Assembly (NCBI RefSeq): GCF_003967355.1
Contig: NZ_BIFH01000028.1
Coordinates: 62,001-126,000 of the forward strand
DNA length: 64,000 nucleotides
Direction of reading: 5' to 3'
Source of the DNA: Embleya hyalina
Lineage (GTDB): Bacteria; Actinomycetota; Actinomycetes; Streptomycetales; Streptomycetaceae
The notes below the pieces were generated by a model. That model did not search any database. It saw only the letters and a list, made by a program, of their open reading frames with translations, and was not told the DNA's origin. The position numbers and the translations under genes were made by a program. This document shows positions 22,416 through 39,685 of the stretch, piece after piece. Positions within the stretch are counted from its first letter, which is position 1; each line of letters opens with the position of its first letter.

Positions 22416-23252
22416 CTATGTCGTGGGTACTCGGCCGACCACCGCGAAGCCGAGGAGCAGGGTGAAGCCGTCGGCGGCGACGAAGCGTTCCCACGCCGCC
22501 ATCGCCCGTGCGTACGTCCCCAGGCCCAGGGCGCCGCGCTCGACCAGCGGAAGCAGACGCTCGGGGGACAACTGCGGGGCGAGCGCGGCCGGGCCGCCGA
22601 CCTCGTCGCTGGTGTAGGCGAACGGGCGTACGGTGATCCCGGTCAGGCCCGCGCGGCGCAGGATCCGGGGCAGCCGGCGAGCCACGAGGCGATCCCCGCC
22701 GTCGGCCGCCTGGGCCGTACCGAGGGCGCGGTAGGCGTCGGCGGACAGGGCCGACAGGTCCGGGTCCGCGCAACCCCACAGCCCGGCGTCCACGTCGATC
22801 ACGGCCAGCACGCCGCCGGGCCGCAGCAGCGCGGCCAGCGCCCGGGCGGCGGCCACCGGGTCGGTCAGGTGCTGGAACACGTAGCGGGCCAGCACCAGGT
22901 CGAACGAGCCCGCCGGCAGCGGTGGTTCGGTCAGATCGCCGGCCACGTAGTCGATCCCCGCCGTCGGCGCCTCGGTCCGGGCCACCGCGAGCAGCCGCTC
23001 GTCCGCGTCCAGACCCACCAACCGGGTCCGCGGATCGGCCAGTTCGGCGCGCAGCCGGCGGGTGACCGCCCCGGTTCCGCAACCGGCGTCCAGCACCGCG
23101 CCGGCGACCGTGGGCGCCGTGTCCCGCAGCACCCGCCACTCGTGTGCCCAGCTCAGCTCGGCCTGGATCGCCAACCGGCGCACCTCGGCCGGCACCCCGC
23201 CGAGTTCGGCCTGCGGCCGATAGCTGCCCCCGGGGCGGGTCGGGCCGATCAC
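22416..23252 (-). CDS. SAM-dependent methyltransferase (class I), RiPP tailoring candidate
   Basis: A 278-residue Rossmann methyltransferase. SAM motif I is VLDAGCGTGAVTRRL (about residues 52-66). LVGLDADERLLAVAR provides the acidic ribose-binding Asp, and motif IV is FDLVLARYVFQHLTDPVAAARAL, typical of the Methyltransf_11/25 group. The GTG start overlaps the P450 stop codon (GTGA at 23249-23252), so it is translationally coupled as the last gene of the TOMM operon. It may methylate the modified peptide (N-terminus, carboxylate or a hydroxyl installed by the P450). The target is inferred from context only. Confidence 0.85.
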   Translation of the reverse strand: MIGPTRPGGSYRPQAELGGVPAEVRRLAIQAELSWAHEWRVLRDTAPTVAGAVLDAGCGTGAVTRRLRAELADPRTRLVGLDADERLLAVARTEAPTAGIDYVAGDLTEPPLPAGSFDLVLARYVFQHLTDPVAAARALAALLRPGGVLAVIDVDAGLWGCADPDLSALSADAYRALGTAQAADGGDRLVARRLPRILRRAGLTGITVRPFAYTSDEVGGPAALAPQLSPERLLPLVERGALGLGTYARAMAAWERFVAADGFTLLLGFAVVGRVPTT

Positions 23253-24661
23253 GGCCGCCCCCCGGCGGCGGGCCGGTGCGCGGTCATCAGCAGGCCGTCC
23301 CTGGGCCGCAGGGTCACCAGCGCCTCGGGCACCACCGGATGCCCGGGCACACCGCGCAACTCCAGCCGCTGCAACACCGTGGCCAGCACCAGGACCGCCT
23401 CGGTCAGGGCGAACGACTGGCCGATGCACACCCGGGGCCCGCCGCCGAACGGCACGTAGGCGTGCGCGGGCCGGGCCGCCCGGGCGGTCGCGGTGAAGCG
23501 CTCGGGCCGGAAGCGTTCGGGCTCCTCCCATATCGCCGGGTGCCGGTGCAGGGTCCACGGGCTGATGCACACGAGGGTGCCCTCGGGCACGTGGCGGCCG
23601 TCGAGCACGTCGTCCGCCGCGGCCCGCCGGGAGATCAGCCACACCGGCGGATACAGCCGGATCGCCTCCTCCACGCAGCGCCGGGTCAGGTCCAGACGGG
23701 GCAGGTCCGCGGCCCGGGGCGGTCGGCCGGCCAGCACCTCGGCCAACTCGGCGCGGACCGCCGCCGCGGTCTCGGGATGGCGGTCGAGCAGGTGCACGGT
23801 CCAACTCAGCGCCTTGGCCGTGGTCTCGTGCCCGGCCATTACCATGGTCAGCACCTGGTCGTGCAGTTCGCGATCGCCGAGCGCGTCCCCGTGCGCGTCC
23901 CGGGCGCCGAGCATCGCGTCGAGCAGGTCGGCGGGCCGATCCGTGGGCGGGCCGGTGTAGCGCCGGGCGGCGACGAGCATGCCGACGACGCGGGCCAGGA
24001 AGGTCTGCGCGGCGGTGTACCGCCGGCGAAGCAGGGCCGGGTCCGCGTCCGCGTCGGTCGGCGTGCCGGGCTCGCCGTCGAAGTGGCCGATGAAGCGGTT
24101 GATGTCGTCGACCGCACGGCCGAACCCCCGGCCCGCCGCCGCCAGATCGGCGCCGAGCAGCGCGTCCGCGACGATCCGCAGGGTGAGCGCGGTGAAGTCG
24201 TGGTCGACCCGAATGGTCCGCCCCTCGTCGGCGGCCCGCTCCCACGCGGCGGCCAGGTCGACGGCCGCGTCGGTCATCAGCGTGTCGAACTCCTCGACCC
24301 GTCGCGGCCGGAACGCCGGCGCGCACAACCGGCGTTGCCGCTCCCAGGCGGGGCCGTCGCTGGTCAGCAGGCCCTTCCCGAGCAGCGGGGTGAGCATGAA
24401 GTCGTCCGGGGTGCCGGCCTTCGTCCACGCCGTGTAGTTGTCCTTGAGGATGTGCCGGACCAGGTCGGGGCGATTGACGAACCACACCACCTCGCCGCGC
24501 GTGCGATGGCTGCACAGGTCGCCGAACTCGGCGGCGAGCGTGGTGAGGAAGGCGAGCGGGTCGACCCGGATGTCGGCCAGGCCGAGGTCGTCGGCGGGGC
24601 CGGGCGGACGGGAATGGACGGGCGATCCGGGGGGACCGGAGTGGACGGGCGATCCGGGCAC
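23249..24661 (-). CDS. Cytochrome P450, RiPP tailoring candidate
   Basis: A 470-residue soluble P450. The I-helix oxygen motif is AGHETTA, the K-helix ExxR is EEAIRLYPPVW, and the heme-Cys ligand lies in FGGGPRVCIGQ near residue 410. It resembles the CYP4/CYP110-like bacterial group rather than the shorter classical actinomycete P450s. The GTG start at 24661 has a perfect AGGAGG 5-6 nt upstream. The first 20 residues contain a duplicated PGSPVHS from a 27-bp DNA repeat. It follows the second NHLM transporter gene by 64 bp and is coupled to the methyltransferase gene. Hydroxylation or cross-linking of the azole peptide is inferred; redox partners are not encoded nearby. Confidence 0.9.
   Translation of the reverse strand: MPGSPVHSGPPGSPVHSRPPGPADDLGLADIRVDPLAFLTTLAAEFGDLCSHRTRGEVVWFVNRPDLVRHILKDNYTAWTKAGTPDDFMLTPLLGKGLLTSDGPAWERQRRLCAPAFRPRRVEEFDTLMTDAAVDLAAAWERAADEGRTIRVDHDFTALTLRIVADALLGADLAAAGRGFGRAVDDINRFIGHFDGEPGTPTDADADPALLRRRYTAAQTFLARVVGMLVAARRYTGPPTDRPADLLDAMLGARDAHGDALGDRELHDQVLTMVMAGHETTAKALSWTVHLLDRHPETAAAVRAELAEVLAGRPPRAADLPRLDLTRRCVEEAIRLYPPVWLISRRAAADDVLDGRHVPEGTLVCISPWTLHRHPAIWEEPERFRPERFTATARAARPAHAYVPFGGGPRVCIGQSFALTEAVLVLATVLQRLELRGVPGHPVVPEALVTLRPRDGLLMTAHRPAAGGRP
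24615..24658. repeat. 27-bp-period direct repeat inside the P450 5' end
   Basis: The 17-mer TGGACGGGCGATCCGGG occurs at 24615-24631 and again at 24642-24658. It falls in the first codons of the P450 gene and gives the repeated peptide PGSPVHS. The in-frame period (27 bp = 9 codons) suggests a recent slippage duplication in an unconstrained N-terminus. Confidence 0.7.
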
Positions 24662-24725
24662 GGGAGCCTCCTGGGTGCGGTGGTGGCCGAACTCGCGGGC
24701 GGTGGGTGCTGCGGCCGACGGGGCC

Positions 24726-27713
24726 CTACGTCATCTGACGCTGGACCAGTTGGTGGAACAGGCCGTCCTCGTCGGCCAGCAACTGGTCCGGCGGCCCGGA
24801 CTGGACGACCCGTCCGGCGTCGAGCACCACGATGCGATCGGCCTGCATCACGGTGGACAACCGGTGCGCGATGATGATCCGGGTGGCGTTCAGCCGTCGG
24901 GTGCTCTGGGTGACCACCTCCTGGGTGCGGTTGTCCAGCGCGCTGGTCGCCTCGTCGAAGAACAGGATGCGCGGCCGGCCGATCAGCGCCCGGGCGATCA
25001 TCAGCCGTTGCCGCTGGCCGGCCGACAGGGTCACCGCGCCGTCGGAGAGCACGGTGTGCATGCCCATCGGCATCCGGCCCAGGTCCTGGTCCAGACCGGC
25101 CATCTCGGCCGCCTCCCAGGCCTCGTCCAGGGTGTAGTTGCGCAGTCCGCAGATGTTGTGCAGCACGCTGCCGGCGAACAGTTGCCCGTTCTGCAACACC
25201 ACGCCGAACTGCCGGCGCACCGCCGCCACGTCCAGCGAGGCGAGGTCCTGGCCGTCGTAGAGCACCGAGCCGGTGGTCGGCTGCTCGAAGCCGATCAGCA
25301 GGCGCAGGAGGGTGGACTTGCCGCAGCCGGTGGGCCCGACGATGGCGACGAACTCCCCGGGCCGGGCCCGCAGGTTCACGTCGTCGAGCACCGGCGGGGC
25401 GTCCGGCGCGTAGCGGAACGACAGCCGGCTGACCTCGATGCCGCCGTACAGGTCGCCCGGCGGTTGTTTGGACTCCAGCACCTCGGGCAACTCGGCGAGC
25501 ACCGGCCGCACCCCCTCGAACAGCGGTACCGCGGCGGCCATCATGGTGATGCTCGCGGTCATCTGGAGCATCGAGCCGAGCATCAGGGCGTAGGCCACGC
25601 TGAACGACAGGAACCCGCCGACGTCCAACTCCCCGTCGGCGGGGCCGGAGACCATCGCGAACAGGAGCAGCGTGCACAGCAGCAGATAGCCCGAGTTGAA
25701 CACCGTGACCGTGTTCTGCAACCGACGGGTGCGCACCGACAACACCCGGCTGCGGGCGAAGCCCATCGCCCAGAACGCGAAGGCCCGGTCCTCGGCCGCC
25801 GCCACCCGCAACTTGGGCAGTCCGGTCAGCAGTTGGAACATCCGGCCGGACAACTCGTGTTCCTCGGCCATCAGTTCGCGCTGGCGACGCATCTGGCGCA
25901 GACCGGCGACCGCGCACACCGCGCCGCCCAGGGCGGCGAGCAGCAGGGCGAGCAGCGCCAGCGGCACACTGTAGAAGAACAGCAGGCCCAGGTTGACCAG
26001 GAAGATCAGACACGCCGGCACGAACAGCGCGGTGACCCCGCTGAGGATCTCGCGCAGCGCGCTGATGCCCAGCGCGGCGCTGCTCAGCGATCCGGAGGAG
26101 ACGGACGCGAAGAACCCGGTGGACAGGCGCAACAGCCGGTCCCAGACGGCGGCCTGGGCGATCGCCTCGAACCGCCCCTCGACCCGCAGCAGCGAGAGGT
26201 TCTGCACCGCGGACAGCACCGCCGCCAGAAGCGCGGAAGCCAGCAGCACCACGCACATCTGGGTGACCAGGACCCGGTCGCCCTGCGGGACGAACACGCC
26301 GAGCACCTTCCCGGTCAACACCGGTACCGCCAGCCCGAGCAGCGCGGCGCCCAGACCGCAGGCGAACAGCACGAGTACGTCGCCCAGGCTGCCGCGCAGA
26401 CCGAAGCGCAGCAGGGTGCGGGCACCGCCGGGGCGCTCGGGCAGGGCCGGATAGAACATGGTCGCCCGGTGTTCCAGGCGGGCCGCTCGGGCGCGGTCGA
26501 CGGGTGTCCAGTCGGTGCCGGTGGGATCGAGCACGTGATAGCGCCGACGCCGCCACATCAGGGCCACCGGGCGGCGGGTGTCCGGGTCCGCGTCCGCCAT
26601 GCGGGTGTGTCCGACCAGCGGGCCGGAGTCGGTACGCCACCAGCGACCCGTGAGCGCCACGTCGCGCACCCGGAAGCCGGACGAGACGGCGATCCGCTCC
26701 AGCGGGTCCAGCCGGGCGTCGGCGGCCTCCGAGGTGCCGCCCCGGGTGATCGTCACCCCGCTCGCCTGTCCGACCACCCGGGCCACCGCGAGATAGTCGT
26801 CCTGGTCGGCCACGTCCAGGCCGACCCGGTGCACCGGCCGGTAGGGGTCCAGGACCGCGCCGAGGGCGCGCGAGGAACGGCGCAGCGCGTCGGCGTCGAC
26901 CTCGCGGCGCGCGTCCAGTTCCCGGCAGGCGTTGCCGCGCCGGCCGCGCAGGCGTTCGTCCACGCGCCGCATCAGGGTGTGCTGGTGGTGGGCCAGGTCG
27001 TGGGCGAACGGAGCCTCCGTGAGGACGTCCAGGGTGCGGACGACGTGCACGAGCGCGCCGCCGGCCGAGTACAGCCAGTCGGCCGCGCCGATCGCCAGCC
27101 GGCCGCCGAAGCCGACCGTGGCGCCCGCCTCGGGGACGTCGTCGGCGGGGGCGTCCCCGTCGGCCTCGTCCGGCCCGCCGATGGCCACCGACCCGGACAA
27201 CACGCGCACCCACAGCGTGCCCGCGACCGAGCGGGCCGAGCCGCCGGCGGACAACTCGGCGCCCTCGCCCGCCTCCAGGGCGGTGAACGTACGCGGTGGC
27301 AGGCCCATCCGGACCGCGTCGGCCAGCGCGCCCAGGCCCCGGTCCAGGCCCGCCGCGAAGCGGCCCGCGAAGGCCGCGTCGACCGCGGCGGCGGCCAGGA
27401 CGTCGGCCAGCGGCGCGGCCCGCACCGTCCCGCCGGGCAGCGGTTTGCCCAACATCGCGGTACCGCCGGCCGGCGCCCCGCACAGCACCGTCCCGGCCCC
27501 CACCCGGCACAGGAACTGCCAGCGCCCGCCCTCCTCCCGGGTGGTGGCGAACACGTCCACCATGCCGGCGGTGACGAACCAGACCTGGCGGGCGCCGTCG
27601 AGTGCGCAGGCCCCGGCGAGTTCGGGGCCGAGCGCGGCACCGAGCGCGTGCAGGTCCGGCGGCGCGTCGTCGGGCGGCTCGGCGGGCTCGAAGCCCTGCG
27701 TGGGCTCGGTCAT
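24726..27713 (-). CDS. NHLM-type bacteriocin ABC transporter, permease/ATPase (no peptidase)
   Basis: A 995-residue exporter of the NHLM (nitrile-hydratase leader microcin) system, second-transporter type. The N-terminal 400 residues form a cyclic-nucleotide-binding-like regulatory region, without a C39 peptidase. Six TM helices follow (about 430-700, from VLVLFACGLGAALLGLAVPVL onward). The nucleotide-binding domain has Walker A GPTGCGKST, signature LSAGQRQR (Ala for the first Gly of LSGGQ), Walker B ILFFDEATSALD and H-loop IIAHRLST. The start ATG at 27713 follows AGGAGGAA. It probably works with the peptidase exporter at 27782 and the HlyD-like protein to secrete or transport the azole peptide. 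Confidence 0.9.
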   Translation of the reverse strand: MTEPTQGFEPAEPPDDAPPDLHALGAALGPELAGACALDGARQVWFVTAGMVDVFATTREEGGRWQFLCRVGAGTVLCGAPAGGTAMLGKPLPGGTVRAAPLADVLAAAAVDAAFAGRFAAGLDRGLGALADAVRMGLPPRTFTALEAGEGAELSAGGSARSVAGTLWVRVLSGSVAIGGPDEADGDAPADDVPEAGATVGFGGRLAIGAADWLYSAGGALVHVVRTLDVLTEAPFAHDLAHHQHTLMRRVDERLRGRRGNACRELDARREVDADALRRSSRALGAVLDPYRPVHRVGLDVADQDDYLAVARVVGQASGVTITRGGTSEAADARLDPLERIAVSSGFRVRDVALTGRWWRTDSGPLVGHTRMADADPDTRRPVALMWRRRRYHVLDPTGTDWTPVDRARAARLEHRATMFYPALPERPGGARTLLRFGLRGSLGDVLVLFACGLGAALLGLAVPVLTGKVLGVFVPQGDRVLVTQMCVVLLASALLAAVLSAVQNLSLLRVEGRFEAIAQAAVWDRLLRLSTGFFASVSSGSLSSAALGISALREILSGVTALFVPACLIFLVNLGLLFFYSVPLALLALLLAALGGAVCAVAGLRQMRRQRELMAEEHELSGRMFQLLTGLPKLRVAAAEDRAFAFWAMGFARSRVLSVRTRRLQNTVTVFNSGYLLLCTLLLFAMVSGPADGELDVGGFLSFSVAYALMLGSMLQMTASITMMAAAVPLFEGVRPVLAELPEVLESKQPPGDLYGGIEVSRLSFRYAPDAPPVLDDVNLRARPGEFVAIVGPTGCGKSTLLRLLIGFEQPTTGSVLYDGQDLASLDVAAVRRQFGVVLQNGQLFAGSVLHNICGLRNYTLDEAWEAAEMAGLDQDLGRMPMGMHTVLSDGAVTLSAGQRQRLMIARALIGRPRILFFDEATSALDNRTQEVVTQSTRRLNATRIIIAHRLSTVMQADRIVVLDAGRVVQSGPPDQLLADEDGLFHQLVQRQMT

Positions 27714-27781
27714 CCTTCCTCCTCGTTCTCCGTGGGGACGGCTCCGTGGGGGCAGCGGTGGCGGGCGCGCGGCGCGCGGGG

Positions 27782-30040
27782 CTACAGGTCGCGGATCAAT
27801 TCGGCGTACGGGCCGGGGACGCCCGCGAGGGTGTGGTGGTCGCCGCGCTGGGCGACCCGGCCCTGTTCGAGCACCACGATCTCGTCGCTGTCGCGCACCG
27901 TGGACAACCGGTGCGCGATGATCACGCAGGCGCAGCCGCGTCGGCGCAGGTTGTCGTCGATGGTGGCCTCGGTCTGCGCGTCGAGTGCGCTGGTCGCCTC
28001 GTCCAGGACCAGCACGCTGGGGTTGCGGACCAGGGCGCGGGCGATCTCCAGGCGCTGGCGCTGGCCGCCGGAGAAGTTCTTGCCGCTCTCGGCGACCGCG
28101 CTGTGGATGGTGCCCGGTCGGGCCGCGACCACGTCGTACACGGCGGCGTCGCGCAACGCGGCGACCACCGTCTCGTCCGGGATCGAGTCGTCCCACAGCG
28201 TGACGTTGTCCCGCACGGTGCCCTCGAACAGGAAGATGTCCTGGTCCACGAACGCCACCGCGGTGCCCATCACGTCGCGCGGATGGTCCCGGCGCGGCCG
28301 GCCGTCGAACAGCAGCTCGCCGCTCCACGGTTCGTACAGCCCGGCGATCAACCGGCTCACCGTCGACTTGCCGCTGCCCGAACCGCCGACCAGGGCGACC
28401 CGCCGGCCGGGGCCCACCCGCAGCGAGAAGTCGTCGAGGAGCGGTTTGCCCAACGGGCTGTAGCCGAAGGTGACATGGGACAACTCGACCCGGCCGGCGA
28501 GCACCGTGGCCGGGGCCTCGGCGTCGGACCCGGCGCGGTGCTCCCGCTCGTCGTCGAGGAACTCGGGCGCGGGCGGGAACTTCTCGATGTCCTTGAGCCG
28601 GTTGAGGTCCGCGGTCACGTCCTGCAACCTCGGCCCCAGGTTGGTCAGTTGGGCCACGGGTCGGCTGAACGAGTTGACCAGGGTCTGGAAGGCCACCAGC
28701 AGGCCGATCGACATGTGCCCGTCGATCGCCCGCAGGCCCCCGATCCACAACAGCAGACCGCTGTCCACGGCGGCGAGCAGCGGCGGCACCACGGCCAGGA
28801 TCGACGTGGGCGCGCCCAGCGCCTGCTGTCCGGAGACCACCCGGGCCTGGAATCCGGCCCAGCGCTTGAAGTAGTCGCCCTCGGCGCCGGAGGCCTTCAG
28901 CGTCTCGATCAACTGGAGGCCGTTGAACGACGCCGACACCAGACCCGAGCGGTCCGCGCGCAGCCGGGCCACGGTGTCGGTGCGCATGCGCGAGACCAGT
29001 TTGAGCACCACGATGTTGAGCATCGCCACGCCGACCCCGACCAGGGTCAACTGCGCGTCGTAGGTCCACAGCAGGCCCGCGTAGACCACCACGAGCAGCA
29101 TGCTGACCACCGTGGTGGCCACGTCGCGGGACAGGATCTGCGCGATGGTGTTGTTGGCGGAGACCCGCTTGCTGATCTCGGCCGGGTTGCGCTGGGTGAA
29201 GAACACCACGGGCAGCCGCAGCAGATGGCGTACCACGCGGACCGAGCTGCGGATCGAGGACGCGGACTCGACCCGCAGCAGATGGGTCTGTTGCAGCATG
29301 GTCAGCGCGATGGTGACCGCCGCCGCCAGACCCATGGACGCGAGCAGCGCGGGCAGGAACGAGTGGTCCCGGCCGGTGAGCACCCGGTCGATGAACACCC
29401 GCGTGAACGCGGGCGCGGCCAGGCCGGGCAGGATCAGCAGCAGGCTGGCCAGGAGGGCGAGCAGCAGCGCGCCGCCGCTGCTGCGATAGCGCGCGCGCAG
29501 GTCGGCGAGCAGCCGGGGCGGGTGTCCGCCGCGCCGGAACTCCGGGCCCGGCTCGAAGGTGAGCACGATGCCGGTGAACGCGACGTCGAACTCCTCGGTG
29601 GTGACCGACCGGCGGCCCTGCGCGGGGTCGTTGAGCCGCACCGTCGGCCGACCGAGCCGGCGCGTCATGCCCTCGTAGACGACGAAGTGGTTGAACTTCC
29701 AGAACAGGATGGCCGGCGGCCGGGTCCGGGCCAGTGCCGCGGTCTCCATCTGCATGCCGCGCGCGATGAGTCCGTACGAGCGCGCGGCGCGCAGCAGGTT
29801 CGCCGCCTTGGCGCCGTCCCGGGAGACCCCGCACGCGTGTCGCAACTCCTCCAGCGGGACGAATCGGCCGTGGTGGGCGAGCACCATGGCCAGCGCGGCG
29901 GCGCCGCACTCGACCCCCTCCAACTGGATGACCGTGGGCGTGCGTACCGACATCCGGCGCTCGACGGACTCGCGGCGGCGACCGCGCTCGGGCAGGGCGG
30001 GCGGTGCCTCGGCGGGCGGTGGCGAACCGGTGGTGGTCAT
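27782..30040 (-). CDS. NHLM-type ABC exporter with C39 peptidase domain
   Basis: A 752-residue peptidase/permease/ATPase exporter. The N-terminal C39 domain has the catalytic Cys in VIQLEGVECGAAALAM (about residues 38-53), His in FNHFVVYEGM and Asp in RLNDPAQGRR, so it should cut leaders after a Gly-Gly. Both precursor peptides end their leaders in SVAGG. Six TM helices precede the ATPase, with Walker A GGSGSGKST, signature FSGGQRQR, Walker B VLVLDEATSALD and IIAHRLST. The start ATG overlaps the HlyD gene stop (ATGA). It exports the mature peptide while removing the leader. Confidence 0.94.
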   Translation of the reverse strand: MTTTGSPPPAEAPPALPERGRRRESVERRMSVRTPTVIQLEGVECGAAALAMVLAHHGRFVPLEELRHACGVSRDGAKAANLLRAARSYGLIARGMQMETAALARTRPPAILFWKFNHFVVYEGMTRRLGRPTVRLNDPAQGRRSVTTEEFDVAFTGIVLTFEPGPEFRRGGHPPRLLADLRARYRSSGGALLLALLASLLLILPGLAAPAFTRVFIDRVLTGRDHSFLPALLASMGLAAAVTIALTMLQQTHLLRVESASSIRSSVRVVRHLLRLPVVFFTQRNPAEISKRVSANNTIAQILSRDVATTVVSMLLVVVYAGLLWTYDAQLTLVGVGVAMLNIVVLKLVSRMRTDTVARLRADRSGLVSASFNGLQLIETLKASGAEGDYFKRWAGFQARVVSGQQALGAPTSILAVVPPLLAAVDSGLLLWIGGLRAIDGHMSIGLLVAFQTLVNSFSRPVAQLTNLGPRLQDVTADLNRLKDIEKFPPAPEFLDDEREHRAGSDAEAPATVLAGRVELSHVTFGYSPLGKPLLDDFSLRVGPGRRVALVGGSGSGKSTVSRLIAGLYEPWSGELLFDGRPRRDHPRDVMGTAVAFVDQDIFLFEGTVRDNVTLWDDSIPDETVVAALRDAAVYDVVAARPGTIHSAVAESGKNFSGGQRQRLEIARALVRNPSVLVLDEATSALDAQTEATIDDNLRRRGCACVIIAHRLSTVRDSDEIVVLEQGRVAQRGDHHTLAGVPGPYAELIRDL

Positions 30041-30852: not shown

Positions 30853-32315
30853 GGCCGTCCCCCTCCGGGCCCGCCCGGCACGGCGGTGTTCGGCTCCGGG
30901 CCGACCGTGCCGAGCAGGAACTCGCCGACGGTTCCCTCGCGTTCCCATCGGTTGCCGGTGGCGAGGGCGAACAGGTCGGAGTCGCCGCCGCCGAGCCCGC
31001 ACGCGCCCAGGCCCATCGCGGTCGCGACCAGATACATCGTCTGGTAGAGCACCCCGACGTGTTTGAGGACGAGCGCGTAGCCCATCGTCTGGTACTTCCA
31101 CATCACCCGCCCGAAACGCGCGCTCACCAGCAGCACGACCTGCGGCGGCGTGCTCATCAGCGCGGTGGCGCGGGCGATCTCGGACAACCGGCCGACCGCC
31201 GGGCCGGGGTCGGCGACGTGTTCGAGGCGATGGTCCCGAGGGTCGTAGTGGTACAGGCCGGGAGGCACCCCGACCACGTTGTTCACCAGCGGATACAGCT
31301 CCAGTTCGTGACAGCGCCCGCCCGACGGGTAGGGCCGGTCGCCGACCTCCTGGCGGTCCTCGTGCAGGACGGCGCGGTTGCGTGCCGTGCGGTACAGGAA
31401 CTCGCCGAGCTGCGCGAGGGTCAGCGGCCTCGTGTCGTCGTGCGCGCGCACCGAACGGCGGCCCTCCAGCACCTCGGTCAGCGGCGGATCGGTTCGGCGT
31501 ACGGTGTCCGGGTCGGGGCGGGGCAGGTCGACGGTCGGTCCGTCGAACGCCGGGCGGACCACCGGCAGCGCGGGTTCGGCGGCGGCCCGCCAGTAGGTGC
31601 CGCCGTAGGGCAGGTCGTGCCGGCCGGCCCGGGTGCGCCCGTGGAACCACAACTCGTGCGGCGACCACCTGGCCCGGTCCGGATCGGCGTCCTCCTGCTC
31701 GGGATCGACCAACAGGCCGTAGCGGGACAGCAGTTCGAGGGCGCGCGCGTCACCGGGCGGCAGCGCGCCGGCGTCGTGGCGGGGCAGCGCGGCCACCAGT
31801 GCGGCCAGGGTCGGATCGAGCAGGTCGGCGGCGACCGGGGCCAACGGCGACTCCAGGACGATGTGTTCGCCCTCGCGGCGGAGCACCGCGAAGCGGGACA
31901 ACCGCCGGGTCGCCGGATCGGGCGCGGTCGCGCCGCGGGCGAGCGGGGCCGGTGGGGCGAGCGGACGCAGCGCGAGGACGGGCCGGCCAGCCACCTCCAG
32001 GGTGGTGCCCAGCCACCCGCCGGCGCGCAACCGCTGGAGCAGCGCGGGCAGTTTCAGCAGGGCGCCCTCGCCGTCGCGGTCGAGCACGGCCCGGTGCAGG
32101 TCGTCCTCGCTGCTCGGGCGGTCGGCGAGCAGCGCGACGGCCGCCGCGACGCCCGGGGTCAACACGCCCAGGGACATTCCGCGCGGCCCGAGGAAGAGCA
32201 GGGTGGCGCCGGCGGCGTTGGTGCTCGCCCGCGCGCTCGGATGCAGGGCGATGCGTTCCACCGGCACCGTCGTCGCGGCGCCGGCCGCGTTCGGCGGGAT
32301 ACCGAGGCTGGTCAT
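30849..32315 (-). CDS. SagB-type azoline dehydrogenase (TOMM biosynthesis)
   Basis: A 488-residue SagB-family protein. The C-terminal half is an FMN nitroreductase-like domain: LEGRRSVRAHDDTRPLTLAQLGEFLYRTARN (flavin phosphate-binding Arg/Ser), GGRCHELELYPLV, and the late GYALVLKHVGVLYQTMYLVATAMGLGACGLGGGDSD block typical of SagB proteins. The N-terminal half is a winged-helix-like region (LLKLPALLQRLRAGGWLG) usual in fused SagB proteins. It oxidises azolines, made by the YcaO enzyme from Cys/Ser/Thr, to thiazoles and oxazoles. GGAGGTTCC precedes the ATG at 32315. Confidence 0.93.
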   Translation of the reverse strand: MTSLGIPPNAAGAATTVPVERIALHPSARASTNAAGATLLFLGPRGMSLGVLTPGVAAAVALLADRPSSEDDLHRAVLDRDGEGALLKLPALLQRLRAGGWLGTTLEVAGRPVLALRPLAPPAPLARGATAPDPATRRLSRFAVLRREGEHIVLESPLAPVAADLLDPTLAALVAALPRHDAGALPPGDARALELLSRYGLLVDPEQEDADPDRARWSPHELWFHGRTRAGRHDLPYGGTYWRAAAEPALPVVRPAFDGPTVDLPRPDPDTVRRTDPPLTEVLEGRRSVRAHDDTRPLTLAQLGEFLYRTARNRAVLHEDRQEVGDRPYPSGGRCHELELYPLVNNVVGVPPGLYHYDPRDHRLEHVADPGPAVGRLSEIARATALMSTPPQVVLLVSARFGRVMWKYQTMGYALVLKHVGVLYQTMYLVATAMGLGACGLGGGDSDLFALATGNRWEREGTVGEFLLGTVGPEPNTAVPGGPGGGRP

Positions 32316-32461
32316 GGAACCTCCGGGGCAGGTCGAGCCGGGCCGGATCGGTTGCGCGGCGGGAGCGGCCCGGGCGGAGCGGGGCCGGCCCGGCCGAGCC
32401 GACCGGGCGCATCGAGGGCGCCGACGGTCGGATCGGACCCGGGCCACGGCACGGGACGCGC

Positions 32462-34768
32462 TCAGAAGAAGACGCTGTACGGGTTGAGGTCGGCCTCGGG
32501 CACCGGCTCGGCCAGCCAGCCCAGCCGTACGGGTGTGTCGTACATCCGCCCCGGGCCCAACCTGCGCCAGAAGTGCCGCAGTCCGGGCACCATCACCTTG
32601 GCCACGTTCAGGTCCAGATCGGGCAGGGTCTGGTCGAGCACGATCACCTCGAGGTCGACCGCGCGCAACCGCTCCACCGTGTCGCGGATGTCGCGCGCGA
32701 TGTCGCCGCTGTGCAGGATGCCGTAGCCCTCCAGCGTGGTCCGCGGCAGATGCCGCGCGGGCAGCGCCCACGGCTCCCGCTCGGCGGTGGCGGTGTGCAG
32801 CCAGGCCAGGGTGTGCGGGTCGTCCTCCCAGTAGGCGGTGGTGCCGTCGGGGTTGCGGTTGATCACCGCGGGCAGGAACTGGTTCACCTCGGTGAGCGCG
32901 CGCAACACCGCGATCCGCACGTCCAGGTGGGCGCCGAAGCCGAGAAGGATGTCCTCCACCGGGTGGTCGGTGCGCCGGGAGACCGCGGCGAACGTGGGCA
33001 CGCCCAGGTCGGTGGTGATGTCGACGACCTCCAGGGTGCGCTGCATCCCGGCGTAGAAGTCGCGCAGGCTGTCCACATACGGCTCGTGCAGCGAGTCCAG
33101 GTCGAAGCCCGGGCGCAGCGCCCGGTTGTACCACCACAGGCCGACCGCGTCCCGCTCGCAACTCTCGAACAGGCCCTGCATGACCGCCTCTTCGAGGGTG
33201 TTCCCGGAGGCGTTGCCGTTGCCGTCGCTGAAGCAGTAGAAGTGCTCGTTCAGGTCGGGGTGGCCGAACCAGGAGTAGCCGGCCGGCACCAGGCGGGGCC
33301 GGTCGTCGGTGAGCGACCAGGCCCGGGTCCAGTTCAGCCGGTGCTTCTCGTCGAATCGTTCCGGCACGATGTGCAGGCGCCCGGCCGACTCGCGGTTCCA
33401 CTCCTCGCGCGTCTCGTACTGGGTCTCGGAGTAGAGCAGCAGGTCGTACGGGTGCACGGCCAGGTCGGCGCCCAACTCCTCGAACGAACCCGGCTCGGTC
33501 CGGCGGTCGCCGCGCCACACCCCCGAATAGCGCTCGATCGCCTCGCACACGCCGCTGACCCGGGCCTGGACGTCGCTGCGGCCCTTGCCGCCGCTCTGGC
33601 CGCGCAGGTTGCGGCGCAACATGCCGATGTTGGGCCCGGGCACGGCGAAGTTGTGGCTGGCCGAGTAGCTGAAGGTGACGCCGTTGTCCACGTCGTTGAG
33701 CAGGCGCAGCGCGCTGACCGCGCCGAGCAGTCGGCTGATGTGCTTCTCCAGCCGCTTGAACGTGTCGTCGGGGCGCATCGTACGGTGGCCGCCCTCGTCG
33801 TCGAACCGCACCGCCTGGTCCACGAGTTCGACCCGGGGGTCACGGTCCAGGAGCAGCGCGGGATCGCCGCAGGCGGGGCACTGCGGCTGCCGGATCAACC
33901 GGTGTTGCTCCAGCCGCCGGCTGGGTACGTGCAGCGAGACCAGCACCCCCTCGTAGCCGGAACGCCCGTCCGCCGCCAGGAGTTCGGCCGCGGCGGCGGC
34001 GACCAGGTGCGCGGACAGGCCCACCGACCAGGCGGTGGCGGCCAGGGAGGTGCGGATCGGCTCCTCGTCGACGGTGCCGTCCGGGCGCCGCCGCAGGAAG
34101 GTCTCCACCTGCTGGTTGCCCGCCAGGCGGTGGGCCAGACAGTGCCAGCAGCCGGTGCGCCCGGGGACCAGGTAGGGGCCGGTCCACACATCCGCCCCGG
34201 TCGGCTTGGCGAGCAGCCAGGGCAGCCCGGCGGCCCGCAACCGGGCGTCCATCGCGGCCAGTCGCGGGTCGAGGTAGTCGTCGGCGAGCACCACCGTCAG
34301 GTCCGGCCGGTGTCCGCCGTCGGCGGGCGCCGCGCCGGTCTCGGCCGAGGTCACCGGGGTCACCGCCGCGCCGATCTCGCGCAGCGCGGCCACCACGGCG
34401 GCGGCGTCCACGGTGCCGAGCGCGGCCACCTCGATCCGAGCCCCCCGCAGCCGATGGGCGGCCTCGACGGCGTCCAGGCCCAGGCTCTCCCAGGCCGCGG
34501 CCCCGGCCCGGTCGTCGCTCGCCGCGCCGTCCACGAGGTGGCCGAAGCGCTGGAACTTCGAGATCGCGAACACCACTTCGCCCATCGTGAAGCGCTCGGC
34601 GAGCTTCTCGGTGATCTCGGCGATGGTGTGCGTGCCGTCGAGATACGGCAACACGGCCGCGACCGCCTTGCCCTGGACGAGGTAGTGGCCCTCCTCGCAC
34701 AGGAGGAAGACCCGATCCGTACCGAAGGGGCGAGGGACGAGATGTGCCTTGAGTCGAGGCAGGTCCAC
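32462..34768 (-). CDS. Fused Ocin-ThiF/YcaO cyclodehydratase (TOMM synthetase)
   Basis: A 768-residue fusion that binds the leader and makes azolines. Residues 1-90 form a RiPP-recognition-like winged helix (VFLLCEEGHYLVQGKAVAAVLPYLDG). About 95-350 is a ThiF/E1-like Ocin region with zinc cysteines CWHC and CPAC. About 380-768 is the YcaO ATPase, with ATP/Mg residues in GVCEAIERYSGVWRGDR and EAVMQGLFESCERDAVGLWW. The protein ends NPYSVFF rather than the classic PxPxP of azoline synthetases, although Pro residues occur nearby (AEPVPEADLNP). It is the first gene of the minus-strand operon, divergent from the precursors. The start at 34768 is the longest form and begins with conserved MDLPRLK. 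Confidence 0.93.
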   Translation of the reverse strand: MDLPRLKAHLVPRPFGTDRVFLLCEEGHYLVQGKAVAAVLPYLDGTHTIAEITEKLAERFTMGEVVFAISKFQRFGHLVDGAASDDRAGAAAWESLGLDAVEAAHRLRGARIEVAALGTVDAAAVVAALREIGAAVTPVTSAETGAAPADGGHRPDLTVVLADDYLDPRLAAMDARLRAAGLPWLLAKPTGADVWTGPYLVPGRTGCWHCLAHRLAGNQQVETFLRRRPDGTVDEEPIRTSLAATAWSVGLSAHLVAAAAAELLAADGRSGYEGVLVSLHVPSRRLEQHRLIRQPQCPACGDPALLLDRDPRVELVDQAVRFDDEGGHRTMRPDDTFKRLEKHISRLLGAVSALRLLNDVDNGVTFSYSASHNFAVPGPNIGMLRRNLRGQSGGKGRSDVQARVSGVCEAIERYSGVWRGDRRTEPGSFEELGADLAVHPYDLLLYSETQYETREEWNRESAGRLHIVPERFDEKHRLNWTRAWSLTDDRPRLVPAGYSWFGHPDLNEHFYCFSDGNGNASGNTLEEAVMQGLFESCERDAVGLWWYNRALRPGFDLDSLHEPYVDSLRDFYAGMQRTLEVVDITTDLGVPTFAAVSRRTDHPVEDILLGFGAHLDVRIAVLRALTEVNQFLPAVINRNPDGTTAYWEDDPHTLAWLHTATAEREPWALPARHLPRTTLEGYGILHSGDIARDIRDTVERLRAVDLEVIVLDQTLPDLDLNVAKVMVPGLRHFWRRLGPGRMYDTPVRLGWLAEPVPEADLNPYSVFF

Positions 34769-35235: not shown

Positions 35236-35616
35236 ATGGAGCCCAGGGACAGGGCCGCGTTCGTCAGGTCCTACACGAAGGTGCTCACCGCCGCCTGGTC
35301 GGACGACGAGTTCGCGAGCCGGCTGGAGAACGACCCGCGTGCCGCGCTCGCCGAACACGGCCTCGAACTGCCCGCCGGCGCCTCGGTGCGCATCATCCGC
35401 AACGTCGAGGGCGAGCCCGACCTCGACGGCCAGGTCACCCTGTGGGAGGCCGGCACCGTGTCCGGCACGTACGAGCTGCGCGTGCCCAACTCGCCGCAGA
35501 TCGAGCTGCGCGAACTGTCCGAGGCCGACCTCGAATCGGTCGCCGGCGGCACCATCGAGACGCGCGACGACACCACGTACTGCTGCTGCTGTTCCCCGTG
35601 CTGCTGCTGCACCTGA
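35236..35616 (+). CDS. NHLP-type TOMM precursor peptide 1 (core with CCCCSPCCCC)
   Basis: A 126-residue precursor. Residues 1-105 form a nitrile-hydratase-alpha-like leader (RAAFVRSYTKVLTAAWSDDE, then DPRAALAEHGLELPAGASVRI) ending in the C39 exporter cleavage site SEADLESVAGG. The 21-residue core begins TIETRDDTT and ends YCCCCSPCCCCT. That is eight Cys plus Ser, Pro and Thr, so up to ten contiguous heterocyclisable positions interrupted only by Pro. A GAGGGAG ribosome site lies 8 nt before the ATG. It shares an almost superposable leader with precursor 2, 37 bp downstream. It is the expected substrate of the YcaO/SagB pair across the divergent promoter. Confidence 0.95.
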   Translation: MEPRDRAAFVRSYTKVLTAAWSDDEFASRLENDPRAALAEHGLELPAGASVRIIRNVEGEPDLDGQVTLWEAGTVSGTYELRVPNSPQIELRELSEADLESVAGGTIETRDDTTYCCCCSPCCCCT

Positions 35617-35653
35617 CGGCGCGCCGCGGCACGGCGCAGGGAGAGGACGGCTC

Positions 35654-36013
35654 ATGGAGCCCAGGGAAAGGGCCGCGTTCGTCAGTTTCTACGCCAAGGT
35701 GTTGACCGCGGCGTGGTCGGACGACGAGTACGCGGCCCGGTTGGAATCGGACCCGCGAGCCGCCCTCGCGGAGATGGGCTTCGAACTGCCCGCAGGGGCC
35801 ACGGTGCGCATCACGCGTGAGGCCGGAGGGGAACCCGACCTCGAGGCGCAGGTGCACGCCTGGGCCGAGGGCATGAAGACCGGTCGATACGAACTGTGGG
35901 TCCTGGACTCGCCGTTGCTGGAGACGCGCGAGCTGTCCGAGGCTGATCTCGACTCGGTGGCGGGTGGCGACGCGTACAGCTGCTCCTGCTCACCGTGCTG
36001 CACCAGCACCTGA
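35654..36013 (+). CDS. NHLP-type TOMM precursor peptide 2 (core with SCSCSPCCTST)
   Basis: A 119-residue precursor with a 105-residue leader matching precursor 1 in length and most positions (MEPRERAAFV..., WSDDE, DPRAALAE, ELPAGA, SEADLDSVAGG). The 14-residue core is DAYSCSCSPCCTST. Its last 12 residues align without gaps to those of precursor 1, with Cys replaced by Ser or Thr at four positions, while Tyr, Ser-Pro and the final Thr are kept. Products would be mixed thiazole/oxazole peptides. GAGAGG precedes the ATG. It is co-transcribed with precursor 1 and with the lipoprotein and radical SAM genes downstream. Confidence 0.95.
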   Translation: MEPRERAAFVSFYAKVLTAAWSDDEYAARLESDPRAALAEMGFELPAGATVRITREAGGEPDLEAQVHAWAEGMKTGRYELWVLDSPLLETRELSEADLDSVAGGDAYSCSCSPCCTST

Positions 36014-36157
36014 TCGACCCGGCCCGACGGCCCCGGTGCGCGGGAGGCCCCCGTCCTCCCGCGACACCGGAGCCGCCCCACGGACCGGCCCGGGGCGTGC
36101 CGTCGCCCCGGAACTCGCCCCGGAATTCGACCGGCCACTGACCCGAGGTGGAGACCC

Positions 36158-37273
36158 ATGCCCGGACCGACCGCGCCGGACGCGCGCGCACCGCACCCCT
36201 TCGGGGCACGCGTGACCCACCCGCCCGTCGGCCCCCGCCGCCGGGCGACTTCGGCCGTTCGCCGCCGGGCGGCCACGCTCGCCTGCGCCCTGCTCGTGGC
36301 CGGCGCCGCACTGGCCGGATGCGGGGAGGGCACCGCCGACCCCAAGCCCGCGGCGCCCCGGGCCGACGCGCCCCCGGTGGGGGTGGAACAGGCCACCCGC
36401 CTGCTCCAGGAGTATTCCGCGGCCAACACGCGGATCAACACCGGCCTGGACCCGGCCGGGGTCGACGCGATCGAGATGCCGCCCGCCTCCACCGGCAGCA
36501 AGGCGGGCCTCCAGGTGGCCAAGACCCAGGCGGTTGCGGTGCCGACGACGGGATACGTGCATCCGCGCTTCGTCTTCCCGCGCCAGAGCGGGTATCCGAA
36601 GTTCTTCGTGGCGATCACCCAACTGCTGCAATCCGACACGGTCTCCCCGTCGCCCAAATACCTGCTGTTCGTCCAGGAGCACGACGGCGCGTCGTGGAAG
36701 GTCGCCTACTACCCGTTCGTCACCGACCGTTCGGAGATCCCGGACCTGGACCAGGACGCCGCCGGCGGTGCTCCCGCGGTCACCGACGGCGCCGGACTGC
36801 TCGCCGACCCCGCCGCCCTCGGCCGCGCCTACCAGGACTACGCCCAGGGCAAGCGCGACCCCAAGGTGCCGCTGTCGCCCACCAAGACGCTCACCGGACA
36901 ACTCACCGGCGGGTGGACCGCCGGCGTCCAGGCCCTGCGCGCCAAGGGCGGCATCCTGGAGCGCGCCATCGTGCCCGACGGACCCCGATACCCGACGTAT
37001 CTGCTGCGCACCCGCGACGGCGGCGTGCTCGCCTTCACCGCCGTCCAGGTCCGGGACACGATGACCTCCTCGGGCGGCAAGGACGGTGTGCCTCTGGACG
37101 CGGGCAGCCGTGAGGCCGCGCTGGCCGGCAGCCCCGAGGGGACCCGGGCGGCGCAGTACGTGGTCACCCGCCTCATCGTCTCGCTCAGCCACATCCCACC
37201 CGCCTCGGCACCGGGTACCGGCGTGCAGCTGATCGCCTACGGCGACTACGCCCTGTCGGTCGCGGCCGGCTGA
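36158..37273 (+). CDS. Putative lipoprotein in the RiPP operon
   Basis: A 371-residue exported lipoprotein. After a basic, unusually long N-region come a hydrophobic stretch (ATLACALLVAGAALAGC, Cys at about residue 54) and the lipobox LAGC. The mature part contains YVHPRFVFPRQSGYPKFFVAITQLL and SPKYLLFVQEHDGASWKVAYYPFV. It resembles streptomycete lipoproteins of unknown function (possibly the DUF8094 type, an uncertain family call). GAGGTGGAG lies just before the ATG. Its position between the precursors and the radical SAM gene suggests a role in immunity, secretion or peptide capture; this is inference. Confidence 0.8.
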   Translation: MPGPTAPDARAPHPFGARVTHPPVGPRRRATSAVRRRAATLACALLVAGAALAGCGEGTADPKPAAPRADAPPVGVEQATRLLQEYSAANTRINTGLDPAGVDAIEMPPASTGSKAGLQVAKTQAVAVPTTGYVHPRFVFPRQSGYPKFFVAITQLLQSDTVSPSPKYLLFVQEHDGASWKVAYYPFVTDRSEIPDLDQDAAGGAPAVTDGAGLLADPAALGRAYQDYAQGKRDPKVPLSPTKTLTGQLTGGWTAGVQALRAKGGILERAIVPDGPRYPTYLLRTRDGGVLAFTAVQVRDTMTSSGGKDGVPLDAGSREAALAGSPEGTRAAQYVVTRLIVSLSHIPPASAPGTGVQLIAYGDYALSVAAG

Positions 37274-37351
37274 GCCCCGACCCGGTCCGCGAACCCCCGC
37301 CCCGCGCGCCTCGGCGAACCCCCGTCCACCACGCCGCAGAGAGGACCCCGG

Positions 37352-39421
37352 ATGTCGTCGCCCGCCGCACCGGCCCGCCGCCGTGAGGTCCACCTGGTCG
37401 AGCTGACCGTGATGCCGGGGGTGCGCTACAGCGCCGTGCTCGGCCAACTGCACGCGGCGGCCCGGGCGGACCCGGAGCTGGCCGCCGCGGTGACCTTCCA
37501 CAAGCACGTACACCTCCAGCGCGGCGCCGCCGATCGGGACCGCGTCGCGCACGCGGTCCTGGACCGGCTCGACGACCCGCTCGTGATCGCCTTCACCGTC
37601 TACTTCTGGAACCGGGCACGCACCCTGGAACTGGCCCGCCGGGTCCGGGAACGCTGGCCGCGCTGTCGGGTCGTGGTCGGCGGCAACGACGTCACCCACC
37701 AGCAGCGCGCGCTGTTCGCCGAGGCGCCGTGGGTGGACGTACTGGTGCACGGCGAAGGGGAGTTGCGCTTCCGGGACCTGCTGCGCCACTTCGTCGCGCA
37801 CCCCGACGCCGCGCTCACCGACCCCGCGCTGCGGGCCGCGCTGGCCGAGGTGCCCGGGATCAGCCTGCGCGGCCCCGACGGCGCGCCGGTCGACACCGCC
37901 GAAGCGCCGCGGGTGACCGACCTGGACGCGCTGCCGTCGCCGCTGCTCGACCCCGAGGTGTGGTCGGACGAGGACCTGGCCGCCTCGCGCATGATCGTCT
38001 ACGAGACCAACCGCGGCTGCCCGTACTCCTGCGCGTTCTGCTACTGGGGCGGCGCCACCAACTCCAAGGTGCGTCAGTACTCCCTGGATCGCATCCGGGC
38101 CGAACTGGAACGGATCGTCGCACACGCCGGCAACGGCACCCAACTGTTCATCGCCGACGCCAACTTCGGCATCCTGCCGCGCGACACCGAGATCGCCCGG
38201 CTCCTGGTCGAGTTGTGCGCGAGCCGGCGCAAACGGCTGCTCGTGATGACCAACTGGGCCAAGAACACCAACGGTCGCGTGGTCGAGATCGCCTCGATCC
38301 TGCACCGCGCCGGCCTGACCGGCGCGATCACGCTGTCGGCGCAGTCCTTCGACGCCGAGGTGTTGCGGCTCGCCAACCGGACCAACATCCGGGTGGACAA
38401 CTACCGGCGCATGCAACGGCAGTTCCGCGATCGCGGGATCCCCACCTACACCGATCTGATCTGGGGCATGCCCGGCGAATCACTGGCCACTCACCTGGAC
38501 GGCGTCGAGGAGGCGGTCGCCTCCGGCGGGTCGCCGGTGGTGTATCCGCTCCTGCTGCTGAACAACACCGACTACACCCACGCGCGCTTCCGCGACGAGC
38601 ACGCGCTGATCACCCGCCGCATGCCGTGCGATCCCGGCAACACCGACCTGATCGCCGACGTGGTCACCGGCCACTCCCGGATGGACTTCGCCGACTGGCT
38701 GCGCGGCATGGAACTGCGCATCCCGCTCACGCTGTTCCACAAATGCCTGCTCCGCTGCACGCTGCGGGTGCTGGCCCGGGCCGCCGGCGCCCGGACCGTC
38801 GACCTGGTCGCCACGCTCGGCGAACACCTGCGCGCGGGCGGCCCGGACCCCATCGCCGCCTTCTGGTACGCCGACTACACCCGCTCGTGGCGCGAGCCGG
38901 ACCGTTTCCCGCGCGAGGCGCTGTACGCCGAACTGGGCACCGAGCCGATCCACGAGGAGGTGCACTACCAGGCGATCCTGCACCGGATGGTGCGCACCCC
39001 CGAGCGTGCCCGCCGGCACGCGCACGCCGCCGTCGACGTGCTGTACGAACACCTGGGCGCCGCCGCGCTGCCCGACCGGGCCGACCTGGACGCGGTGATC
39101 GAACTCGACCTCGCCGCCGCCTCGGTCTTCCGGGCCGGCATCCACCAGGTGGCCGAGACACACGAGTTCGCGGTGCCCGCCGCGCTGTGGGCGATCCTGC
39201 GCGAATACGGCGACGTGCCCGAGGCGGCCGGCGAGGGGAGCGCCGACGACCTCGGAGCGGGCGTGGTCCGCGGCACCGTCACCGTCCCGGCGTTTCGCAC
39301 CCATTACCCGTTCAGCCCCTACGCCCTGTCGGTCTGGCACGGCAGCGGACGCCCGATCCACGACTGCACGACCACCGCCGTCGCCACCCCCGCCGAGGCC
39401 GTCGAGCCCGCGCGCCACTGA
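37352..39421 (+). CDS. B12-binding-type radical SAM protein (RiPP maturase candidate)
   Basis: A 689-residue radical SAM enzyme. Residues 13-140 look like a cobalamin-binding Rossmann domain (RCRVVVGGNDVTHQQRALFAEAPWVDVLVHGEGE), although the classical DxHxxG motif is not visible. The 4Fe-4S cysteines are Cys223, Cys227 and Cys230 in NRGCPYSCAFCYWGG. The partial TIM barrel continues with IADANFGILPRDTEIARLL and YTDLIWGMPGES. The C-terminal 250 residues are family-specific. Proteusin clusters with the same leader type use such enzymes for C-methylation, so methylation at unactivated carbons of the core is a reasonable inference. It is followed 9 bp later by a tiny membrane gene. Confidence 0.88.
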   Translation: MSSPAAPARRREVHLVELTVMPGVRYSAVLGQLHAAARADPELAAAVTFHKHVHLQRGAADRDRVAHAVLDRLDDPLVIAFTVYFWNRARTLELARRVRERWPRCRVVVGGNDVTHQQRALFAEAPWVDVLVHGEGELRFRDLLRHFVAHPDAALTDPALRAALAEVPGISLRGPDGAPVDTAEAPRVTDLDALPSPLLDPEVWSDEDLAASRMIVYETNRGCPYSCAFCYWGGATNSKVRQYSLDRIRAELERIVAHAGNGTQLFIADANFGILPRDTEIARLLVELCASRRKRLLVMTNWAKNTNGRVVEIASILHRAGLTGAITLSAQSFDAEVLRLANRTNIRVDNYRRMQRQFRDRGIPTYTDLIWGMPGESLATHLDGVEEAVASGGSPVVYPLLLLNNTDYTHARFRDEHALITRRMPCDPGNTDLIADVVTGHSRMDFADWLRGMELRIPLTLFHKCLLRCTLRVLARAAGARTVDLVATLGEHLRAGGPDPIAAFWYADYTRSWREPDRFPREALYAELGTEPIHEEVHYQAILHRMVRTPERARRHAHAAVDVLYEHLGAAALPDRADLDAVIELDLAAASVFRAGIHQVAETHEFAVPAALWAILREYGDVPEAAGEGSADDLGAGVVRGTVTVPAFRTHYPFSPYALSVWHGSGRPIHDCTTTAVATPAEAVEPARH

Positions 39422-39430
39422 GGGATCGCC

Positions 39431-39580
39431 ATGACCCGCAACGTCCGTGCCGCCGTCCCGATGATCTACGCCGTCGCCATCGTGGTCGGCTTCCTGATCG
39501 ACACCCGGGTCGGGATCGCCGTCTGTGTCGTCGGCGGCATGCTCGTCGGCCTCGCCTACACCGTGCTGCGCCGCTCCTGA
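39431..39580 (+). CDS. Small two-helix membrane protein (49 aa)
   Basis: A 49-residue protein starting MTRNVRAAVPMIY. It has two hydrophobic helices, AVPMIYAVAIVVGFLI and VGIAVCVVGGMLVGLAYTV, joined by a short DTR turn, and a basic tail (LRRS). It begins 9 bp after the radical SAM stop codon and ends the operon. I recognise no family. Small hydrophobic proteins at the end of bacteriocin-like operons are often immunity factors, which is a guess here. Confidence 0.6.
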   Translation: MTRNVRAAVPMIYAVAIVVGFLIDTRVGIAVCVVGGMLVGLAYTVLRRS

Positions 39581-39685
39581 ACCGCGTCGGCCGCCGCCCC
39601 GGCGTGCGTGGCCCACGACCACCGGAATCCCGTCGCACGTGCCACCGCGTCCCCTATCCTCGTCCCGGACACGGGGGTGGGCACG

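Follow-up and report, generated by a model that had tools for sequence, protein, structure and literature searches.

A conserved proline-hinged Cys/Ser/Thr core in an NHLP-type cluster of Embleya hyalina and its predicted pair of tailored polyazole peptides

Ribosomally synthesised and post-translationally modified peptides (RiPPs) that combine a nitrile hydratase-like leader peptide (NHLP), the enzymes of thiazole/oxazole-modified microcins (TOMM) and export of the nitrile hydratase leader microcin (NHLM) type have already been described (Haft 2010, PMC2887384; Cox 2015, PMC4603692). In the available portions of these two papers, the systems comprise a nitrile hydratase (NHase)-like leader ending in GG, a fused C-D cyclodehydratase, a dehydrogenase, an exporter with a C39 peptidase, a second exporter and an HlyD protein, and their core is called hypervariable. 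All of these components are shared by a cluster of Embleya hyalina, which lies within the 64,000 nucleotides of contig NZ_BIFH01000028.1 analysed here (the window); in contrast to the described systems, however, it has a conserved core of five Cys, Ser or Thr residues, a Pro and five further Cys, Ser or Thr residues (5-P-5), and it additionally carries genes for a cytochrome P450, a methyltransferase and a cobalamin (B12)-binding radical S-adenosylmethionine (SAM) enzyme. Judged from its genes, the two NHLP precursors probably give rise to two bis-pentazole peptides, likely linear and hinged by the proline, in which each five-residue block would become five azoles, and the product is likely C-methylated, oxidised and methylated. 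The chassis is known; what stands out here is a core conserved over phyla, the presence of a like core on a thiopeptide chassis and tailoring genes that vary together with features of the core. The initial annotation of this DNA had proposed a heavily tailored, NHLM-exported polyazole pair, which is still the best reading, but these three aspects had escaped it.

Three other described systems share part of this equipment. Nostatin A (PMC11583998) combines an NHLP leader, azoles formed by a YcaO protein and an oxidase, and a class B B12 radical SAM enzyme, which was hypothesised to alkylate a Pro; it differs in its 30-residue core (AASCQTTASSACTTPSCLSSASTASSNSCS), a LanM-like dehydration and a PoyD-like epimerase, and no P450 is named in the available part of the report. 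The MprE/MprC/MprD system (PMC12455567) also uses an NHLP leader with an L(X)4L motif, the binding of which was shown for MprE/MprC, as well as a YcaO protein and an oxidase forming thiazoles; it differs in having ten precursors, which receive two to six rings, and the words "radical" and "P450" do not occur in the main text as available. In the case of aminopyruvatide (PMC11117315), a B12 radical SAM enzyme, a P450 and a methyltransferase act on one RiPP, and no YcaO protein is named in the accessible text. Its P450 joins two Tyr residues, a reaction that does not fit the present cluster because each E. hyalina core has one Tyr, and an ApyO-like Tyr-Tyr cross-link is thereby ruled out. The core strings CCCCCPCC, CCCCSPCC, CCPCCTCT and CCSPCCTC were not found in the open-access literature, with subscription journals mostly outside the search; neither were CCCCTPCC and two leader strings of the thiopeptide type, and three matches to SSCCCCC were unrelated by title. 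Searches of the open-access literature on related themes yielded nothing nearer than the papers named here, and a description elsewhere is possible. According to the initial annotation, no characterised product is known with this core and enzyme set. Nostatin A, as far as the available part of that report extends, is a characterised product that already unites azoles with an NHLP leader and a B12 radical SAM enzyme, although on another core.

The core is better conserved than the leader. A search with precursor 1 revealed 73 proteins, one of which is the E. hyalina precursor itself or a 99% copy. A Cys block, a Pro and a second Cys block are present in 71 of them, and exactly five Cys/Ser/Thr residues, a Pro and five Cys/Ser/Thr residues up to the C terminus are found in 52 (47 of the 50 best). 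The typical core end is Y-CCCC-S-P-CC-[SCT]-C-T; among the 52 exact 5-P-5 cores, Tyr stands directly before the first block in 50, Ser occupies position 5 of block 1 in 46 and the terminal residue is Thr in 50. In 751 pairs with a leader identity below 45%, which are not independent of each other, the mean identity is 0.35 for the leaders and 0.85 for the cores. Precursor 2 retains the 5-P-5 arrangement with Ser at three positions of block 1. Since words of the whole precursor are scored, this search favours like cores; a leaders-only profile, applied to loci chosen by their YcaO protein, gives a similar picture of the core. With this profile, CCCCCPCCTCT was found in Myxococcus, Desmonostoc and Caulobacter and TYCCCCSPCCTCT in Desertimonas, and the Microbispora, Nonomuraea, Streptomyces and Kitasatospora types have three or four Cys before the Pro and five Cys/Ser/Thr residues after it. 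Cores that do not fit were also encountered: those of Tetrasphaera and Actinoplanes differ, three Streptomycetaceae genomes combine the leader with Cys-free cores, and a more distant NHLP group of Herbidospora and Nonomuraea has other cores. The precursors represent a sub-family in which evolution keeps the core while the leader drifts, with members in actinobacteria, a myxobacterium, a cyanobacterium and others. Because the core is kept over phyla in spite of this drift, its conservation points to one conserved target.

Conserved Cys-rich cores would also suit a metallophore, and the peptides could be partly cyclised and act as thiolate/azole metal chelators instead of polyazoles. This is quite unlikely, as Ser and Thr residues at fixed places, i.e., the frequent Ser at position 5 and the three Ser residues of precursor 2, fit azoles better than metal thiolates, and the presence of SagB and YcaO proteins also counts against chelation. 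Two five-azole blocks joined by an aliphatic hinge, as predicted here, are known from plantazolicin, which has an Ile-Ile hinge, another leader, other enzymes and blocks of mixed Cys/Thr/Ser composition. Thiangazole and tantazole were considered as products on account of a likeness only and were discarded, as nothing on a ribosomal origin was found among the matches listed in a literature search. Two side observations concern the wider family. The NHLP loci L057, L059 and L067 of Actinoplanes and Winogradskya encode extra precursors with nearly Cys-free cores, e.g., SETKVNIIVACVVNA in L057, beside a Cys-rich core. The Desmonostoc locus (L026, 5606-16498) encodes a CCCCCPCCTCT precursor without GG, a P450, a methyltransferase, an S8 protease, a YcaO protein, SagB and a HemN-like plus a second radical SAM protein, and no NHLM exporter was matched in this locus.

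Both E. hyalina leaders are NHase-like, end in GG, as had been noted initially, and are followed by a Cys/Ser/Thr-rich tail. With 46.9 and 42.7 bits (E values of 2e-12 and 4e-11) they remain just under the curated cut-off of the NHLP leader model TIGR03793 (50.9), but can be regarded as homologous to it. The leader-binding domain, the YcaO domain and the dehydrogenase exceed the cut-offs of TIGR03882, TIGR03604 and TIGR03605, which together make up the gene set of TOMM/linear azole peptides. For NHLM export, the cut-offs are likewise exceeded by the C39-bearing exporter ABC1 (TIGR03796) and the second exporter ABC2 (TIGR03797), and the HlyD-like adaptor, also recognised initially, stays below that of TIGR03794. 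The nearest solved structures of the fused cyclodehydratase are LynD (E=1.6e-162), TruD and MusD, and by homology the protein is a C-D fusion of this kind; the fusion as such had been recognised in the initial annotation, but its description as Ocin-ThiF/YcaO needs to be corrected, since it is not a fusion to the F protein that is separate in thiopeptides. The radical SAM protein possesses a B12-binding domain (PF02310, 34.8 bits, cut-off 32.1), a radical SAM domain (PF04055, 64.3 bits, cut-off 29.5) and the CxxxCxxC motif CPYSCAFC at 223; it scores 307 bits against the KedN5 family NF033712, below the cut-off of 700, and its nearest solved structures are TokK and CysS. Both of these enzymes are iterative C-methylases. 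Neither a LanM-type dehydratase beside the YcaO protein, as in the azole proteusins nostatin and carnazolamide, nor the LanB-type dehydratase and [4+2] enzyme typical of thiopeptides was detected among the scanned cluster genes, no genome-wide search having been made for the latter two.

The following pathway is proposed on the basis of homology and family membership. The leader, with its L(X)4L motif LSEADL, would bind to the RiPP recognition element (RRE) of the fused YcaO protein, as for MprE/MprC, whereupon the YcaO domain would cyclodehydrate and SagB oxidise both blocks. As suggested by co-variation, the P450 and the methyltransferase may together modify block 2 or its C-terminal Cys-Thr, and co-variation and the relationship to TokK and CysS suggest that the B12 radical SAM enzyme may C-methylate block 1 or the hinge. 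The C39 exporter would cut after GG and export the product together with the second NHLM exporter and the HlyD-like adaptor. As a default guess, the peptides could inhibit the growth of other bacteria.

The co-variation was counted over the E. hyalina locus and 35 of 80 loci, which had been kept from 197 relatives, and the gene and core states of these 36 loci were assigned by hand. Lentzea L006 and Caulobacter L048 are part of the tree and were excluded from the counts because of contig ends; the other loci outside the counts had no identified hinge-core precursor or were not followed. The P450 and methyltransferase genes are located beside the precursors or within the cluster in 25 of the 36 loci, these 25 being spread over Actinomycetota, Myxococcota and Cyanobacteriota, and the presence of this pair agrees with a C-terminal Cys-Thr in 35 loci. 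Four changes of the pair are seen along the YcaO tree, and on average 3.7 of four independent pairs show the same change at the core end. For the radical SAM gene, the corresponding feature is the length of block 1: in the 25 P450-bearing loci, the gene agrees with a block 1 of five in 24 cases if contiguous Cys/Ser/Thr residues are counted and in all 25 if counting starts at the first Cys, and over all 36 loci it agrees with a block 1 of at least five in 30 or 31 cases, respectively. Block length depends on the rule: if contiguous Cys/Ser/Thr residues are counted, Streptomyces filipinensis (L011), in which no radical SAM gene was found, likewise has a block 1 of five; Nakamurella was scored as five via its second precursor only, and Desmonostoc as radical SAM-positive via its HemN-like gene. 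Several observations weigh against such a coupling of tailoring genes and core: Winogradskya L067, the sole exception for the pair, ends with Cys-Thr in the absence of a P450; the sign test on the four pairs gives p=0.125, and 0.05 is unreachable with four; five or six loci out of 36 do not fit the radical SAM and block 1 rule; and independent pairs lend no support to it. As there are only four changes on the tree, the link between the P450/methyltransferase pair and the Cys-Thr end is suggestive, and that between the radical SAM gene and block 1 is weak. Tyr is an unlikely target of the P450 because the cores of the P450-bearing Desmonostoc and Myxococcus loci lack it.

No radical SAM gene was found in 16 of the 25 P450-bearing loci within about 10 kb on each side of the YcaO gene (less at contig ends, longer for some). 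A genome-wide search in the genomes of these 16 loci, which covered the KedN5 type alone, revealed relatives elsewhere in four of them, namely G008, G009 and G010 (35-36%) and G012 (56%, in its thiopeptide-type cluster). Where radical SAM genes are present, they are of different kinds: KedN5-like in the E. hyalina group, Nakamurella (49-50%) and, more distantly, Desertimonas and a metagenome-assembled Anaerolineae genome; HpnR-like with B12 in Myxococcus, Caulobacter, two Acidobacteriota and one proteobacterium; and HemN-like in Desmonostoc, where a second radical SAM gene matched weakly. Locus L044 has a distant KedN5-like gene and a core of another kind. It could be argued from the 16 loci and from close relatives of the B12 enzyme in other contexts (nine of 27, see below) that the genes for the P450, the methyltransferase or the radical SAM enzyme are mere neighbours without action on the peptide and that a plain azole peptide of the NHLP type results. 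This is unlikely in view of the 25 loci of different phyla in which the P450/methyltransferase pair accompanies the precursors and of the radical SAM gene, which lies near the precursors in all four Embleya genomes of the set and in four more cluster-bearing genomes. The radical SAM, P450 and SAM methyltransferase genes, all of them already listed initially, are conserved parts of the cluster, and a tailored polyazole pair is the preferred reading. The same cluster genes are found in Embleya scabrispora, Actinacidiphila yanglinensis, Streptomyces malaysiense and Streptomyces sp. S465, with the leftward genes in the same order, and the second precursor adjoins the radical SAM gene in the latter three. 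Because the same genes recur in these four genomes, the gene set is beyond chance.

A like core is also present on an unrelated chassis. A core-DNA pattern search, blind to leader and enzymes, matched 42 of 384 genomes of the family; some of these matches are due to chance, since a backward control pattern also gave scattered matches. One locus each was read for 30 of the 42 genomes, which revealed six loci of the E. hyalina type, 12 short precursors and 12 matches that are not precursors. The short precursors end with ...GYGLTELSASGGASSCCCCCPCCSCT or a close variant and are present in two or three copies in 10 of the 12 cases; in the loci L174 and L206-L211, the core SSCCCCCPCCSCT nearly equals the NHLP-type core. 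All three short precursors that were scored are members of the thiomuracin/GE37468 leader family NF033399 (49.9-51.6 bits, cut-off 29). This sub-group of thiopeptide-type loci resembles E. hyalina in its almost identical core and in encoding a related B12 enzyme, but differs in its unrelated leader and in other enzymes. All seven loci examined encode an F protein, a separate YcaO protein (24-26% identity), SagB and a luciferase-like monooxygenase as well as the B12 radical SAM protein (52-54%); LanB-type genes were seen in both loci scanned for them, one locus showing the N-terminal and the C-terminal part and the other the C-terminal part, and no match to the E. hyalina P450 or methyltransferase was found in the seven. 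In all 12 genomes, the B12 gene, with 54-56% identity to that of E. hyalina, is located within 5 kb of the precursor, with an in-frame stop in one (G057), and some genomes (G012/G068, G057 and G162) carry both cluster types. In L174 (Streptomyces NRRL B-24484; 7884-8141 and 8018-9340), two precursor copies keep the core and show no usual leader start. The occurrence of a like core behind NF033399 leaders together with LanB-type genes might suggest a thiopeptide-like macrocycle for E. hyalina as well; this is highly improbable, as the scanned cluster genes include no LanB-type gene and as two Ser residues at a distance of nine, a feature of most thiopeptide-type cores, are absent from the E. 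hyalina cores.

Relatives of the B12 enzyme with at least 47% identity number 27 in 326 genomes, six of them in clusters of the E. hyalina type, 12 in thiopeptide-type clusters and nine elsewhere. The latter (L238, L239 and L240-L246; 47-67%) lie away from hinge cores: the flanking 15-20 kb that were read (G062 near a contig end) showed no hinge core or YcaO match, two of the nine occur as paralogues in cluster-bearing genomes, and L240-L243 share a conserved neighbour gene, which in the scanned copy (L241) reads as an FAD/tryptophan halogenase. An exclusive tie of the enzyme to the 5-P-5 core was consequently rejected. In the enzyme tree, the two paralogues fall within the E. hyalina-type group, and a modest support of 84 places the thiopeptide-type group with the halogenase-side relatives. 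Two histories would explain this: a joint transfer of core and methylase between the chassis, or two separate recruitments of one methylase sub-family to cores that resemble each other. It may tentatively be speculated, though this is rather doubtful, that a single peptide design, two polyazole blocks hinged by a proline, was carried onto two unrelated chassis together with a B12 radical SAM C-methylase, which would recognise the azole core instead of the leader, and that core and methylase form a portable unit under selection for one conserved target. The like core on two chassis offers a natural experiment on whether the methylase recognises azole core or leader, and on the need of the P450 and methyltransferase for the C-terminal Thr.

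The initial annotation had placed the cluster at 22416..39580; a cluster is indeed located there, but synteny sets its limits at 19178 and 39421, from the LuxR-type regulator gene to the stop codon of the radical SAM gene (Table 1). Leftward from 34768, the order is fused cyclodehydratase, SagB, HlyD, C39 exporter, second exporter, P450 and methyltransferase, and rightward from 35236, the two precursors are followed by the lipoprotein and the B12 radical SAM gene.

Table 1. Features of the E. hyalina cluster (positions in the window).
Feature	Position	Strand	Evidence
LuxR-type (LAL) regulator, 1060 aa, cluster edge	19178..22360	+	GerE and AAA_16 domains
SAM methyltransferase, P450 partner	22416..23252	-	PF08241 E=1e-21; candidate start GTG 23252; pair conserved
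Cytochrome P450	23249..24661	-	PF00067 E=7e-82; heme motif FGGGPRVC, I-helix motif AGHET
NHLM exporter ABC2, without peptidase	24726..27713	-	TIGR03797 849 bits (cut-off 709)
NHLM exporter ABC1 with C39 peptidase	27782..30040	-	TIGR03796 1001 bits (cut-off 853); candidate start ATG 30040
HlyD-like adaptor	30037..30852	-	TIGR03794 144.8 bits, E 3e-42, just under cut-off 156.2; ATG 30852
SagB-type azoline dehydrogenase	30849..32315	-	TIGR03605 154.6 bits (cut-off 78.4); start ATG 32315
Fused leader-binding/YcaO cyclodehydratase (LynD kind)	32462..34768	-	TIGR03882 127 bits (cut-off 36.9), TIGR03604 230 (cut-off 219)
Precursor 1	35236..35616	+	core TIETRDDTTY-CCCCS-P-CCCCT after GG; leader model TIGR03793
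Precursor 2	35654..36013	+	core DAY-SCSCS-P-CCTST after GG; leader model TIGR03793
Lipoprotein, SCO2278-like	36158..37273	+	lipobox LAGC; NF053531 72.6 bits (cut-off 210)
B12 radical SAM protein, TokK/CysS/KedN5 class	37352..39421	+	PF04055, PF02310; TokK E=1e-66, CysS E=3e-49

In A. yanglinensis and in genome G140, the cluster is likewise accompanied by the regulator gene and the lipoprotein gene, with relatives of 44-45% at the same cluster edge for the former and of 52-53% for the latter. The lipoprotein gene is conserved in some clusters, also in Lentzea (35%), and was not detected in the clusters of S. malaysiense and S465; its product could be an immunity protein or an export aid. A two-component system at 39608-41310 was rejected as a cluster member, as it is matched in E. 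scabrispora and not in A. yanglinensis or G140. A frameshift in the HlyD gene, suspected from a long open reading frame, was also rejected, since the gene reads from its own ATG. The ATG of the ABC2 exporter gene at 27713 is accompanied by a Shine-Dalgarno-like stretch. The fused cyclodehydratase is the sole YcaO match in the genome of 12.05 Mb, and the nearest YcaO proteins come from Embleya (97% and 89%).

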